Source: a virus. From it: a stretch of 33,624 nucleotides of DNA. The translations under genes and the position numbers were made by a program. The DNA is taken from IMG/VR virus record IMGVR_UViG_3300034093_000266, positions 1-33,624 of that record; one strand, written 5' to 3'. The notes beneath the pieces are model-generated. The model ran no database searches. It had not been told where the DNA came from and was given only the letters and a program-made list of their open reading frames with translations. Position 1 is the stretch's first letter. Each line of letters begins with the position of its first letter. Shown piece after piece: positions 4,047-18,705 of this stretch.

Positions 4047-6586
4047 CAGAATGTGCCCCCTGTGACCCCGCCCGTGGCGGTTAAAACGCCCGTGGATGGA
4101 TTAAATTTGAGTTTAGTGGATGATACCTTGATTGGCAAATTTCCTGTGGTTGTAGTCACCCAGGATAGATACATTTCTGCCGCTGTGGTGGTGTCATCTG
4201 TAATTGCCACGTTCGTTGCGTTTGTTGCGGTTCCCGCTGTGGTTGCAGACCCTGCCGAACCGTCAATATTTACGCCTGTTAGAGATTGGGCGCTACTTGC
4301 CCGATTGAGTGCAATGGCAGTTGTGCCAACGTACAGGCTTGAATTACCCAATACACCGCTGGAAATCGTGCCAGACAACTGACCCGCTGGGAGACTTGTC
4401 AGGCTCGCCCCCGAACCGCTGAACGCTGTGGCGGTCAACAATCCAGAACTAGGGTTAAAGTTTAGTTTTGTGGAACTGACAAAGTTTGTGGTCAGGTTGC
4501 CCGTAGTCTGGTCTGCAAACAAGGGGTAACGCACCGCATTGGTGGTTACATCATCTGTGACCGTGGCGTAGGCTACGGGGGTTACCCAGCTTGGGGCGCT
4601 TGTGCCGTTGGATTGCAGAACCTTATTGGCATCCCCCGCGCTAGAGGCCAGGAATGCCGTTGTGCCGCTTGCGGATTGGTAGGGTATGGATGCCGCCGCC
4701 CCACCCGCCAAGTTGGTTGCCGTGCCCACAGACACGGTTGAGGTGGCAACGTTTGTCCAATAGCCCAAGGATGTGCTGTATTGGATTAAATTCTTGTCAG
4801 CAAGTGTGCCAAATTGCACGTTTGAATCAGTACCGCCAAGTGTCGAACCTCGGACAATGCCAACTTGGAAAGACCCAGAACCGCCTGACCCTGCTTTGAT
4901 TACAAGGCCCACTTGCACCTTGATGTAGGGTGCAACAGGTTCAACTTTGGTGGGGTTTCCTGTTATCGGGTTGTACCAAATAACATCATCATCAGCCCAA
5001 ACCTCACCAAAAGCCGTGCCGTTGGTTGTGATTCCACGAACTACGCCAAACGATGTGACACGCCCAAAACCATTAAGCGCCAAATCTTCAGTGGCAATGC
5101 CGACAATTGCATTGGCATCTGTAATCCCCACAATCGTGGGCGCAAACGTAATAACGCCACTGGCCCCCACAGTGCCCGTGTGGTAAACAATTTGAAGGGG
5201 CGAATCTGTAATGGCAGCAGACGCTTTGCCATAAACAAAAATTTCTTCACCAATTTGCTGGGTAATGTTGCCGTTACCCATGCCCAAATTCCACGAACCC
5301 GTAGAACCGTCATACCACATTCTTCCTGCGGCAAGAGTTACAGCAGAACCATTGCTAAACTGCTGAGACAAAATGCCGCTGGTGTTGCCTGTGTCATCAA
5401 TCGTTACAACACTGTTTTGAATCAGCTTGCCCGTGGTCAGGTTAAATCGGGCAATTGCGTTATCTGTTGCACTTGCTGGCCCAACTACATCCCCTGCGCC
5501 ATAGTCTGCCCAGGTTGGCGTTCCAGCACCGCCAGAGATCAGAACCTGTCCAGCAGTACCCGCAAGGGAAAACGCATAAGCCGTGCCCGTGCCGTAGGCC
5601 ACAGCGCCAGCCGTTGCCGTTGCCGTGCCGTTTGTGCCGCCATTTGCAATTGGCAAAGTGCCAGACACATGGGTGGTAAGGCCAATCTTTCCCCAACTTG
5701 GCGCGGTGGTGACCCCGCCAGAAATCAACGCATTGCCCGTGGCAACGTCTGACAGCTTGCTGAGTGCGGATGTACCAGACGCATAAATAATGTCGCCAAT
5801 AGCGTAACTGGTGATGCCTGTGCCACCATGATCAGCGGCAATTGCTGTCCCCGCCCAAGTGCCTGTGGCAATTGTTCCCAACGTGACGATGCTTGTTTGG
5901 CCTGGGTAAGTGTCGGAAATCTTTAGCCCACTTGCAGATGCATCTAAGGTTGTACCGTTTGGCTTGACAGAGAATGTATTGCCAATCAGTTGAAGGCCGC
6001 TTCCCGCAATGTACGAACCCGCACCAGAAAACTGCGACCAAGGCATTGCGGTCACATCAATTGTGCCACCCTGATTTGCGGTGCATACCCAGCCCGTATC
6101 AGCCAAGGTTGTGCCTGTTTCAATGAAGGTGAACGCTGATGGCACTTCTGCCCAAATACTCATGTCGGCAGATCGTGCCCAAGTGCTGGCAGATGCCACA
6201 TAAATGCCGTTGAACTGGCTCAACGTCTGATCTTTGACCAGAATCCTATCCCCAGCGGTCAGCGTGGCAATCCAATCGCCCCCCGCTTGTACCGCCAAGC
6301 CCGACAGCGTGATGTTGTTGGTGGTTGAGTACACACAGGATGCTTTTACATCCAAACCCTGCGCCACCGAATCCACATAGCCTTTGTTGGCAATGTCTGT
6401 GGCGCTAGTTGGGGTTGTGGTAATCGTGCCAGTTACCGTGCTGATGTTCGTGAATGAGGCGTTTTCTGGGCCATAAAAAGGCGTTCCAGCAGGGCCAACA
6501 AAGTACTGAAGGGCAAAGGTAGGCTCGGGCGCAAAAACGCCCTGCACAGGGACAAAATTAGTGGTCTGGGTGACCGCTGTGGTCAT
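4046..6586 (-). CDS. Long tail fibre protein (846 aa)
   Basis: This is the longest protein of the fibre block. An N-terminal segment (to ~residue 60) is followed by ATDIANKGYVDSVAQGLDVK and a LSGLAVQAGGDWIATLTAGDRILVKDQ region typical of phage fibre shafts. Repeated GGTG.TSY..GDI.YASG and LPIANGGTNG motifs come next, and a repeated module near the C-terminus (SSTKLNFNPSSGLLTATAF and SSTKLKFNPSTGVLTATGG). It ends VTGGTF, the same last four residues as the 117-aa protein at 30943-31296. There is no signal peptide or enzyme motif. It is the first large gene after the candidate promoter/terminator region at 6.9 kb. A host-range fibre is likely. Confidence 0.8.
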   Translation of the reverse strand: MTTAVTQTTNFVPVQGVFAPEPTFALQYFVGPAGTPFYGPENASFTNISTVTGTITTTPTSATDIANKGYVDSVAQGLDVKASCVYSTTNNITLSGLAVQAGGDWIATLTAGDRILVKDQTLSQFNGIYVASASTWARSADMSIWAEVPSAFTFIETGTTLADTGWVCTANQGGTIDVTAMPWSQFSGAGSYIAGSGLQLIGNTFSVKPNGTTLDASASGLKISDTYPGQTSIVTLGTIATGTWAGTAIAADHGGTGITSYAIGDIIYASGTSALSKLSDVATGNALISGGVTTAPSWGKIGLTTHVSGTLPIANGGTNGTATATAGAVAYGTGTAYAFSLAGTAGQVLISGGAGTPTWADYGAGDVVGPASATDNAIARFNLTTGKLIQNSVVTIDDTGNTSGILSQQFSNGSAVTLAAGRMWYDGSTGSWNLGMGNGNITQQIGEEIFVYGKASAAITDSPLQIVYHTGTVGASGVITFAPTIVGITDANAIVGIATEDLALNGFGRVTSFGVVRGITTNGTAFGEVWADDDVIWYNPITGNPTKVEPVAPYIKVQVGLVIKAGSGGSGSFQVGIVRGSTLGGTDSNVQFGTLADKNLIQYSTSLGYWTNVATSTVSVGTATNLAGGAAASIPYQSASGTTAFLASSAGDANKVLQSNGTSAPSWVTPVAYATVTDDVTTNAVRYPLFADQTTGNLTTNFVSSTKLNFNPSSGLLTATAFSGSGASLTSLPAGQLSGTISSGVLGNSSLYVGTTAIALNRASSAQSLTGVNIDGSAGSATTAGTATNATNVAITDDTTTAAEMYLSWVTTTTGNLPIKVSSTKLKFNPSTGVLTATGGVTGGTF

Positions 6587-6589
6587 GGC

Positions 6590-6853
6590 TTACTCAAAAT
6601 AAACCGTGATGCTTGCAGTTCCAGAAATCACGACATACAACCCGTTTTCACAATTGATGCCATCATAAAAATTAATGTTTGTTGCCGCTGTCATGGTGAA
6701 TGTGTCAATGATTTTCACATTTGTGCCAGGGGTTTGGGCATCGTACACAGTCACGGTGGGGGTGCTGGATATGGTGCTAACAAAAATGCCTTTTAGTTTT
6801 CCAGGTTGATTTTTCACCATTGCGGTGGCAGAAATCTGTGCGTAGTTAGACAT
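6590..6853 (-). CDS. Small beta-rich virion protein (87 aa)
   Basis: A short protein (MSNYAQISATAMVKNQPGKL to NGLYVVISGTASITVYFE) with alternating hydrophobic/Thr residues, as in phage head-decoration or tail-fibre attachment proteins. It lies 3 nt upstream of the long fibre gene and is the first gene after a terminator hairpin at 6896-6922, so it opens the fibre sub-operon. It resembles small proteins that follow P22-like coat genes, but a specific family is not recognised. Confidence 0.7.
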   Translation of the reverse strand: MSNYAQISATAMVKNQPGKLKGIFVSTISSTPTVTVYDAQTPGTNVKIIDTFTMTAATNINFYDGINCENGLYVVISGTASITVYFE

Positions 6854-6876
6854 GGCTTGGCCTTTCAGTTCATCAA

Positions 6877-6882
6877 ATTATA
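6877..6882 (-). promoter_or_regulatory. Candidate -10 element for the fibre block
   Basis: A perfect TATAAT reads on the minus strand about 25 nt upstream of the ATG at 6853. No good -35 hexamer is visible at the normal distance, where the terminator stem lies. It may be a weak or activator-dependent promoter restarting transcription after the terminator. Confidence 0.35.
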
Positions 6883-6895
6883 TGCTTCAAAAGAG

Positions 6896-6922
6896 AAAAA
6901 GCCACCCCTTTTGAGGGCGGCT
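6896..6922 (-). terminator. Rho-independent terminator after coat/decoration genes
   Basis: On the minus strand an 8-bp stem AGCCGCCC/GGGTGGCT (one G-U pair) with a short loop is followed by TTTTTCTCTTTT. It lies just after the stop of the 140-aa gene at 6945 and before the fibre block. It probably limits read-through from the highly expressed coat region into the fibre genes. Confidence 0.75.
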
Positions 6923-6944
6923 CTTTCACTTAGTTCATGCCGTT

Positions 6945-7367
6945 TTAAGGCAGGAAGGTCAGGTCGTAACCGTAGATGAATACATCAGCGGTTGCGGCAG
7001 CGCCTTGGGCGGTGGTGCAACGAATATACAGGGGTGTGCCCGTAATCGATGCGGTTGAGGTTGCGGCGGTCACAACAACTGCGGTGGTCGAGTTATTACC
7101 CGACAACGCATATGCTGATTTCACTGCTGTGCCAGTAGCGCTTGGGCCTGTGTACACGGCAAGTTGTGCCGTGGTCAAACTGATGCTTGCGTTTGCAACA
7201 ATGATGCTTTGAACGCTGACGTTACCAGCCACCAAAATGGGGGCGATAGTGTCAGCAACAGCATTGAGGTTAACGCCTTGGGCAGAGGCAATCAAGCGCA
7301 ATGCCTGATTGGTTGCCAAGTTACTGGGGTGGTTGGTGGTGGTGCTTGCTGCGCCTGGATTAGACAT
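6945..7367 (-). CDS. Virion (decoration-like) protein next to coat (140 aa)
   Basis: Start chosen at ATG 7367 (MSNPGAASTTTNHPSNLATN) because AAAGGA lies 8 nt upstream; a longer in-frame form would run into the coat gene without a ribosome site. The protein is Ala/Thr/Val-rich and beta-stranded (SISLTTAQLAVYTGPSATG, TPLYIRCTTAQGAAATADV), without enzyme motifs. It directly follows the coat gene and precedes a terminator, so it is probably made at high level with coat. A capsid decoration or head-fibre role is inferred from position. Confidence 0.72.
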   Translation of the reverse strand: MSNPGAASTTTNHPSNLATNQALRLIASAQGVNLNAVADTIAPILVAGNVSVQSIIVANASISLTTAQLAVYTGPSATGTAVKSAYALSGNNSTTAVVVTAATSTASITGTPLYIRCTTAQGAAATADVFIYGYDLTFLP

Positions 7368-16257: not shown

Positions 16258-16381
16258 CTATTGTCTCCAATGTGGAAAACCTGTGGAAATTAGCGCATTC
16301 CAAGCGCCTTCTTCTTGTATTGCCTGTGGATATTCTGGATTCTTTGACAATTGTCCATGTTCCGCATTCTGGACACTTCAT
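16196..16381 (-). CDS. NrdR/Ogr-like zinc-ribbon regulator (61 aa)
   Basis: ATG 16381 overlaps the TGA of the transporter-like gene (ATGA), so MKCPECGTWTIVKESRIST is chosen over a longer form. CPECG ... RRRRLECANFHRFSTLE resembles the zinc ribbon of NrdR or Ogr/Delta-type transcription factors, followed by a basic helix (RKTFIRKVKKAAE). It could activate late transcription, as Ogr-like proteins do, since it lies just ahead of the late operon. That role is inference. Confidence 0.72.
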   Translation of the reverse strand: MKCPECGTWTIVKESRISTGNTRRRRLECANFHRFSTLETIVDRKTFIRKVKKAAETGGKP

Positions 16382-16851
16382 TTTTTTAACCAATAAGACC
16401 AGATGCCGCCGCCAAATACTTTGGCGCAGAACTGAAGGGCAACGATTTCGGGCATCAATCCACCAAAAGCAATGGTTGGGAATGTGATGGAGTCCACCGC
16501 AGCGCCAGCAACATTAGACCCGTTTGATCGAATCACCCATGCTTTATCCCGCAAATAATGATAAACAATGGTGTCGGCAGTCATGGCAAGGGCAAATGCC
16601 ACAAATGATGCCAAAGCAATCGCCCCCGCTGCTGGGTTCAGCAAATACGAAACCCCACTAGCCACCGCAATCAATCCACCCATTTTTAGCAAAAGCCTGT
16701 CGTTTTGCCATTGTTCATGCAGTTTGTCCCGCAATGACAAATCCAGCCCTATCAGCACAAAAGCATTTATGGGGCTAAACCAAGGGCCAAGCCATGCCAC
16801 CAGTAGGTTAGCAATGACAAGGGCGGCAATGTAAATCGCTGGATAAATCAA
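16378..16851 (-). CDS. VUT/YhhQ-like queuosine-precursor transporter (157 aa)
   Basis: Several membrane helices, with the family-like motif FSPINAFVLIGLDLSLRDKL (residues ~25-44), then GLIAVASGVSYLLNP, IALASFVAFALAMTADTIVY and TFPTIAFGGLMPEIVALQF. This pattern belongs to the VUT/COG1738 family, whose member YhhQ imports preQ0/preQ1. The start is TTG 16851: AGGAG is 8 nt upstream and the TTG overlaps the TGA of the TGT-like gene (TTGA). At 157 aa it is shorter than bacterial YhhQ (~220). Coupling to a TGT-like gene strongly supports precursor uptake for 7-deazaguanine modification. Confidence 0.78.
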   Translation of the reverse strand: MIYPAIYIAALVIANLLVAWLGPWFSPINAFVLIGLDLSLRDKLHEQWQNDRLLLKMGGLIAVASGVSYLLNPAAGAIALASFVAFALAMTADTIVYHYLRDKAWVIRSNGSNVAGAAVDSITFPTIAFGGLMPEIVALQFCAKVFGGGIWSYWLKK

Positions 16852-17531
16852 ATCAAAATCTCCTGTAATGGTTTTGTTTCCCAAAGTGGGGGGGGGGGGT
16901 TAGTTGAATCTATGCGTTTTGCCATGCAACCTGCACAAACCTGCTTTTCGGCGTGATGTAACGCCACATTTGTTGAATCAGCACTAGCCAAAGGCCAAGG
17001 GCCAGCAGACAGTCCCAGCATCCTCAATCCATGCACCCAAGGCAATTGCCGCCCAAAGGTGTTTGTCATGGCGTTAAAGGCTTCGTCCATCTTTCCGCAC
17101 CACTTGGGTGTGCCAATCTGCCAAAACTCGCCAGCCGACCCAAAGCAAACCCGCCCCCAGGCATCGCACAGTTCTAATAAATAGGATATTGGCAAGCCCA
17201 AATGCCAGACAGGAATGCCAAATTCTTTGCGGAAAGGCCATGTTTTGACCATTTCCCGCTGTTGCTCAACAGTCCCATCAATCACATCAGGCACAACCGC
17301 CCAATGTGGATGCGCCAACAAAGGTTCAACCCATTCATAGAATCCATCAATGTCAAAGGTCAAGCCACGGGTTTTGGCGCTAAATGCCCCGTTGTCCAGC
17401 ATCAAAGACTGACCCAAGCGCAAGCACCTTTGCAAATCGTCTGGTCTGGCGTAGGAAACGCAAAAATGTTTGCCGCCCATTGTTTCTATGGCTTTCATAG
17501 GCGTTATTGGCGTTCCATGATAGTGAATCAT
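16848..17531 (-). CDS. TGT-superfamily/DpdA-like protein (227 aa)
   Basis: Start at ATG 17531 overlaps the stop of the upstream gene (ATGA). The sequence shows LMLDNGAFSAKTRG (~43-56), WAVVPDVIDGT (~77-87), PVWHLG, CFGSAGEFWQIG, WVHGLRMLG and PLASADSTN, then CAGC. This order of Asp-containing beta-strand ends fits the TIM barrel of tRNA-guanine transglycosylases and their phage DNA-modifying relatives (DpdA), which swap guanine for a 7-deazaguanine base. The coupled VUT-type transporter supports this. A C12 run lies near the 3' end. Whether DNA or tRNA is the target is not shown, and family assignment is by motif only. Confidence 0.6.
   Translation of the reverse strand: MIHYHGTPITPMKAIETMGGKHFCVSYARPDDLQRCLRLGQSLMLDNGAFSAKTRGLTFDIDGFYEWVEPLLAHPHWAVVPDVIDGTVEQQREMVKTWPFRKEFGIPVWHLGLPISYLLELCDAWGRVCFGSAGEFWQIGTPKWCGKMDEAFNAMTNTFGRQLPWVHGLRMLGLSAGPWPLASADSTNVALHHAEKQVCAGCMAKRIDSTNPPPPLWETKPLQEILI
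16888..16899. repeat. Homopolymer tract (G12 on plus, C12 on minus)
   Basis: Twelve identical bases inside the 3' end of the TGT-like gene, encoding its PPPP. With 12 C the gene ends at the TGA that overlaps the transporter start. With 13 C, or a -1 ribosomal slip, the frame runs directly into the transporter without a stop. Confidence 0.9.
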
Positions 17532-17857: not shown

Positions 17858-18705
17858 TTAATCTCCACAAAAACATGAAATTGCTTCTTCATTTGGGTCA
17901 AACATATCAGTCTGTTCTGCTGAATATTTATACATTTCGGCATAACTGGGGCGGTCAATAGCAAAGAATTTGCCATCTCCGTGGCATCTTTTTGCCGCTT
18001 CTTCTTCTTGTTTTATCCACCAAAGCGCCCGTTCTGGCTTTTCTTTAATCAAACTTAAAACCTGAGATTTTGGTTTCAACATACATAAATCACAGTTCCC
18101 GTGCATTGTTTTGCCGTTCATGTTTGGCAATTCAAGATCAAAAGTTTGATTTTTCCAAAAATTGCCGACATCTTTTGATGAAACATTTGCAGGGACAAGT
18201 GGCATATGCACTGTTTCGTGCTTGTTTTCTGGGTGCGGATTTGCACGAAATTTAGCCACGCGCCTTGGTTCATCTGCCCGAATGCCTATAAATGAATCCC
18301 ACTCAGTCCACCCAATTGATCGCAAATGTCGGTGCATCGTTCTGGTTTTCATTTGGCTTGAACAATATCTGGCCCTGCCATTTGGCAAAGTGGGTTCAAA
18401 CCATTTAATTACCGCATCAAAAGGCTCGCCATTTCTACTGGCGGTTTGGTAATTAACAACTTTGGGAATTTTTATGTCATTCACAACAGCAAATTCCAAC
18501 CAAGTAATTTCAACATTCCAATGCCTTGAACAATCATTTACAAATTTCAAAGTGGCTTCTTCTTCTTTGCCCGTGTTGCAAAAAATAACTTTGGCTTCGT
18601 TTGGCAATTGCCCCCCCCGCACTCTAATACTTTATGCAACATATATGCAGAAGTTCTACCACCAGAAAACGATATGCAAGTTGGTGAATCAATTAAAAAA
18701 CTCAT
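17858..18705 (-). CDS. PAPS reductase-like protein, frameshifted at a G8 run
   Basis: ATG 18705 overlaps the TGA of the nuclease gene (ATGA), and the first frame encodes MSFLIDSPTCISFSGGRTSA with the N-type ATP-pyrophosphatase P-loop SGGRTSAY at residues 14-21. At the G8 run (18618-18611) the continuation is in the -1 frame: QLPNEAKVIFCNTGKEEEAT and ~245 more residues, including RARYCSSQMKTRTM, FIGIRADEPRR, GNCDLCMLKPKS and a C-terminal ISCFCG. Full length would be ~280 aa, normal for phage PAPS-reductase-like proteins. Either the run was miscounted (6 or 9 G restore the frame) or a -1 slip is used. The downstream part alone lacks the P-loop. The substrate is unknown. Confidence 0.8.
18611..18618. 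repeat. G8 homopolymer (minus strand) at the frame change
   Basis: Eight G on the minus strand between the P-loop part and the rest of the PAPS-reductase-like gene; a heptanucleotide G-GGG-GGG fits the pattern of a -1 slippery site. Confidence 0.9.

Follow-up and report, generated by a model that had tools for sequence, protein, structure and literature searches.

What does a phage gain by encoding, side by side, a relative of the DpdA base-exchange enzymes and a relative of the queuosine-precursor transporters? The question is raised by two overlapping genes in a viral record of 33,624 nucleotides (IMG/VR IMGVR_UViG_3300034093_000266), which is called the window here. Both genes lie on the minus strand, where a first-pass annotation of the letters alone had placed them. 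The upstream gene, referred to as dpdA, runs from an ATG at 17531 to a TGA at 16848 and encodes 227 amino acids; the downstream gene, vut, runs from a TTG start at 16851 to 16378 and encodes 157 amino acids, predicted to form a compact six-helix protein of the Vut_1/COG1738 family. The dpdA product matched phrog_887 (labelled 'queuine tRNA-ribosyltransferase') with an E value of 1e-46, and the vut product matched phrog_4899 at 1.6e-40 and Pfam Vut_1 (PF02592) at 2.4e-14, with 54.4 bits against a gathering score of 27.2. Comparison with relatives gave dN/dS ratios of 0.02-0.09 for dpdA and 0.09-0.12 for vut, indicating purifying selection on both genes. Because of these family matches and low ratios, the two are not chance open reading frames. 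The TGA stop of dpdA and the TTG start of vut have bases in common in a TTGA overlap at 16851-16848, and an AGGAG ribosome-binding site for vut lies at 16864-16860, within the 3' end of dpdA and with an 8-nucleotide spacer to the TTG, so that both elements reported in the first-pass annotation were located. The overlap recurs in many relatives, which suggests translational coupling, and the AGGAG is kept in close relatives. The window comes from a tailed phage, as it contains genes for a P22-like portal, a major head protein, a terminase and a head-closure protein. The portal proteins nearest to its own belong to uncultured spring phages, Xanthomonas PBR31 and Rhodoferax P26218, and a freshwater betaproteobacterium as host is only a guess from these sequences. 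No tRNA gene was found in the window, and the record carries no terminal repeats and may therefore be incomplete.

The motifs that had been quoted for a TGT-like protein are all present on the minus strand; one of them, CAGC, is limited to close relatives of the window protein and is not general to the DpdA family. The dpdA product had no Pfam or NCBIfam match. In particular, it was matched neither by the curated DpdA models (PF23859 for the mycobacteriophage type and NF041059 for Dpd islands) nor by TIGR00430 for tRNA-guanine transglycosylase, and PF23859 matched none of 67 relatives of the protein. PDB chains of TGT were not found with the DpdA profile, and hhalign against TGT yielded nothing useful. 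Profile searches thus agreed with the families first proposed for the two proteins through phrog_887 and Vut_1, but not through the curated DpdA and TGT models. An AlphaFold2 model based on a 67-sequence alignment (pLDDT 91.5, pTM 0.87) had a single PDB match at E below 0.001 in Foldseek, namely Cap10 (9ntn, 2.3e-4), followed by Zymomonas TGT. Alignment of the model with VIA-align gave a Z score of 14.9 over 216 residues for Cap10 and of 14.2-14.6 for TGTs, with about 207-216 residues aligned; for TGT at Z 14.6, 209-211 of the 227 residues were superposed at an rmsd of 3.0-3.1. As modelled, the protein has the TGT-like barrel that the first-pass annotation had supposed; the fold assignment rests on the structure model, because the sequence profile methods gave no TGT kinship. 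As Cap10 itself belongs to the TGT family and yet binds a protein that is deazaguanylated (PMC11996544), the target of DpdA is not given by the fold alone. Residues that are invariant in the family include D46, P81, D82, H110, H167, R170 and D185, of which D46, H167 and D185 are invariant across 67 sequences. These three are candidates for the two catalytic aspartates (D46, D185) and the histidine of DpdA (H167). In a weak profile match (probability 15-17%), they are collinear with DSGAFT, LHGF and SDS of PF23859-type DpdA, and the same weak comparison places them on DCGAF, LHVLGF and SFDTTSP of island DpdA. Relatives were found in 106 GenBank phage records, including Salmonella phage 7-11 and Pantoea phage MED16, whose DpdA proteins are 33-40% identical to that of the window over 83-89% of the query (tblastn). 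Sequence and model together place the window protein in the phage singleton DpdA group, which is group 3 in Hutinet 2019 and DpdA/TGT_1 in the MED16 study, and make it a probable guanine base exchanger; it has in common with the group homology over nearly the full length, the TGT fold and the finding of no preQ0 synthesis gene.

The second protein had been assigned to the queuosine-precursor transporter family, an assignment that held for the family and needed refinement for the branch. TIGR00697 (queuosine precursor transporter) was matched by 61 out of 61 Vut relatives, whereas the window protein scored 37 bits, under the curated cut-off of 50.95, and by sequence it falls in a compact branch and does not qualify as a YhhQ equivalog. 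A tree set 81 compact Vuts apart from 14 full-length YhhQ proteins (100/99), with a long branch between the groups. The preQ0 transporter YhhQ of E. coli has 221 amino acids against the 157 of the window Vut, and both belong to the Vut_1 family; the compact Vut family profile matched YhhQ at 1.2e-7, with N, R, AS, D and F as the positions in common. The AlphaFold2 model of Vut has six helices (pLDDT 95.4) and resembles an S-component in its fold. Foldseek alone returned nothing significant for this model, and the top nine VIA rows were ECF S-components or ECF metal-transport subunits at Z 8.7-11.5; the score against 5edl was 11.5 over 149 residues, and values below 13 call for caution in helical folds. 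Judged by its sequence family, Vut probably transports a 7-deazaguanine precursor.

We propose that the two genes form a minimal 7-deazaguanine DNA-modification module, in which uptake by Vut and insertion by DpdA into phage DNA act against host nucleases, and we give this reading a probability of roughly 0.7. Vut would raise the supply of 7-deazaguanine base in the cell by uptake, probably of preQ0 and possibly of preQ1 or another derivative. Working in the manner of a TGT, DpdA would then exchange guanines in phage DNA for the imported base or for the dADG derived from it, and DNA modified in this way would be protected from some host nucleases or restriction. Modification of DNA by the pair is supported by the homologues in phages 7-11 and MED16, since in both phages dpdA is the sole gene of the pathway and the DNA carries dADG, at about 0.02% of G in 7-11 and about 0.13% of G in MED16 (PMC6884629, PMC8306585). 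Protection is not proven, because these amounts are small and most of the enzymes that were tried on MED16 DNA cut it.

Compact vut genes are also found with other partners, among them two further subfamilies of DpdA type. In Sinorhizobium phage phiLM21, such a gene follows a different DpdA, matched by PF23859 at 2.4e-43, and at another locus (L105) it precedes the gene for a phrog_15826 protein whose DNG and PDV motifs resemble those of the window DpdA family. In the Dpd islands of Devosia, Ensifer and Microvirga, which encode DpdB and a DpdA matched by NF041059 at 5.8e-158, compact vut overlaps or adjoins queC, and the compact vut of a Dpd-like cluster in a Massilia genome groups in the 35-row clade of the window. 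In the Vut tree, the vuts of Dpd islands are nested among those of phages. Bacterial Dpd islands modify DNA, and the occurrence of compact vut in them favours DNA over tRNA as the target of DpdA. The island-associated compact vut loci of these four genera are L287, L288, L289, L292 and L318.

The pair could instead act on tRNA, with DpdA as a small tRNA transglycosylase that is fed by Vut and restores or boosts queuosine-type modification for phage translation. The TGT fold and the label of phrog_887 would fit such a function, and tRNA queuosine is what YhhQ usually serves. The supply of precursor also bears on this reading. Consistent with the first-pass annotation, which had seen no synthesis gene, domain searches for QueC (PF06508), PTPS/QueD and radical-SAM proteins across the window found none, and the genes neighbouring the pair in the window had no DpdB-like Pfam or PHROG matches. 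Among 49 bacterial genomes with dpdA loci, queC above the cut-off was missing from 4 of the 15 that also have vut and from 1 of the 34 that do not (Fisher p 0.026), a comparison confounded by taxonomy and draft genomes; the four genomes without queC are in favour of the tRNA reading. Because queC is present in the other 11 of the 15, uptake by Vut may supplement host supply and not replace it. The two-gene salvage route first proposed for this locus therefore stands as a coupling of a DpdA-like gene with vut, but was worded too strongly as import in place of synthesis. The genome with the bacterial dpdA-vut locus nearest to the window (L125, 81% identity) has queC and tgt and no YhhQ match. 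Several observations speak against tRNA as the target. An own tgt above the cut-off is already present in 46 of the 49 genomes. At 227 amino acids, compared with about 375 for TGT, the window DpdA is too short for the zinc-binding subdomain of the tRNA enzymes, and it has neither their conserved Cys3His set nor a match to the TGT model. Compact Vut, moreover, occurs in the DNA-modifying islands, and it is the DNA of 7-11 and MED16 that contains dADG. We consider action on tRNA unlikely, and DNA is the target that our analysis favours for the window DpdA.

The neighbourhoods of dpdA were surveyed with DpdA in two scans of IMG/VR and one of GTDB genomes, and in GenBank phages; each DpdA scan consisted of the best 80 matches, so that close relatives are over-represented. 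Of the distinct IMG/VR loci listed, 131 encode a DpdA at least 44% identical to that of the window and have room for a neighbour to be seen. In 119 of these 131, vut lies on the same strand within about 570 bp of dpdA, and in none was an opposite-strand vut found near dpdA; the other 12 lack vut although there is space for a neighbour. The order is dpdA-vut at 91 of the vut-carrying loci and vut-dpdA at 28. As a neighbour family of dpdA, vut was the commonest (126 loci), and the runner-up was found at 27. Starting from vut instead, dpdA or a DpdA-like gene was found next to every one of the 34 close relatives of the window vut, and among distant DpdA relatives in bacterial genomes (below 44% identity) vut is present at 5 of 50 loci. 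A quick tree of DpdA with 132 rows implied at least 21 changes of vut presence and at least 11 of gene order, counts that errors in the tree would inflate (one contig, L012, was excluded from the order count). These data show that the pairing of dpdA and vut is not due to chance.

Linkage of this kind might reflect a common early accessory-gene region of temperate phages, in which Vut is otherwise employed, for example as a membrane exclusion factor. Genes for VRR-NUC, RusA, NinB-like and PP-loop proteins also occur in the region, the 12 relatives without vut agree with a loose association, and in mEp021-type E. coli phages a divergent Vut adjoins a methyltransferase, with neither of the two DpdA families searched for found in mEp021. 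However, no other family approaches the frequency of vut beside dpdA, and the two genes remain adjacent where their order is reversed or another DpdA subfamily stands in for the usual one, across unrelated phages as well as Dpd islands, which makes a shared accessory region an improbable explanation. It is highly improbable that DpdA modifies a protein, such as a host defence protein, with base supplied by Vut: the top structural match is Cap10 of type IV CBASS in complex with a deazaguanylated CD-NTase, but Cap10 and TGT are tied (Z 14.9 versus 14.6) and this match is not decisive for a protein target, Cap10 deazaguanylates protein together with the QueC-like Cap9 (PMC11996544) whereas the window has no PF06508 match that could be such a partner, and the homologues for which there are data have modified DNA.

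The DNA-modification module is thus the reading we prefer, and what counts against it are the vut-less relatives, the mEp021-type phages with Vut and no DpdA, the lack of a match to the curated DpdA models, the small dADG content of 7-11 and MED16, and the presence of queC in 11 of the 15 bacteria with a dpdA-vut locus, which makes the need for import less evident. It is doubtful whether the compact Vut is, beyond this, a transporter dedicated to DNA modification, with a substrate unlike that of YhhQ, that brings in some 7-deazapurine different from preQ0 or passes the base directly to DpdA at the membrane. If it were, these phages would contain an undescribed DNA base and depend on nucleobases scavenged from their surroundings.

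Parts of this picture are already known, namely dADG in singleton DpdA phages, YhhQ homologues that occur here and there, and YhhQ in some Dpd islands. The survey of Hutinet 2019 reported YhhQ homologues in some phages, uncorrelated with any group (PMC6884629), and about 9% of Dpd islands have been reported to contain YhhQ (PMC11888242). In phages 7-11 and MED16, no vut lies closer than 4 kb to dpdA, in contrast to the fixed pair of the window. Dpd islands contain the same compact Vut branch as the window, there overlapping queC, but their DpdA has about 430 amino acids and is accompanied by DpdB and preQ0 synthesis genes, whereas no DpdB-like, QueC or QueD protein was found in the window. Like the window, the clusters of Enterobacter phage EC151 and Seuratvirus combine dpdA with a preQ0 transporter in one phage; unlike it, they also carry folE, queD, queE and queC (PMC8310023). 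What is new is a compact, tightly coupled and widespread two-gene variant, and we found no description of such a pair in singleton-DpdA phages in the open-licence literature. In the largest group of DpdA phages published so far, dpdA stands alone and the source of the base has been unclear; a coupled vut offers a testable supply route. The compact transporter is coupled genomically to singleton DpdA in most close relatives and is common to these phages and bacterial Dpd islands. If our reading is right, modification should be stronger in phages with vut than in those without it, such as 7-11 and MED16. Cultured relatives with vut include PEAT2, AB3P2, LHE71, Lg3, Phleasolo, Phc and Pam5, and BTP1 is a further phage without it.

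Several individual loci deserve mention. At one (L024 2665-3568), vut has been lost by a clean deletion and dpdA is intact; at a second (L072 2155-2456), the vut frame is broken, again with dpdA intact; and other vut-less close relatives have RusA or VRR-NUC genes where vut would be. A 12.7-kb viral contig (L012), possibly a chimeric assembly, carries two dpdA-vut pairs (1604-2829 and 6001-7148), which differ in lineage and lie on opposite strands. In Caulobacter phage DMCA, a gene for a 98-amino-acid QueD-like protein (PTPS, at the Pfam cut-off; L109 5705-6001) overlaps the beginning of a dpdA that lacks vut, and from its sequence it is a possible alternative partner of dpdA. The divergent compact Vut gene of mEp021-type coliphages and MagusPhagus lies immediately before the methyltransferase gene (L118 3908-5175, L319 2417-3681; phrog_757 in mEp021).

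In the window itself, a run of 12 G at 16888-16899 (12 C in the dpdA sense) encodes PPPP shortly before dpdA ends. In close relatives, this tail carries C9 or shorter interrupted tracts with the frame unchanged, and the extra codon lies beyond the last conserved block, so that phase variation at this tract is not indicated. The PP-loop gene upstream of dpdA (17858-18705, minus strand) was considered as a hidden QueC and rejected, as it matches phrog_424 and PAPS reductase and PF06508 has no match in the window. A frameshift splits this PAPS reductase-like gene where eight G follow one another (18611-18618); relatives have a single open frame, and the break in the window is either an assembly error or a real inactivation.
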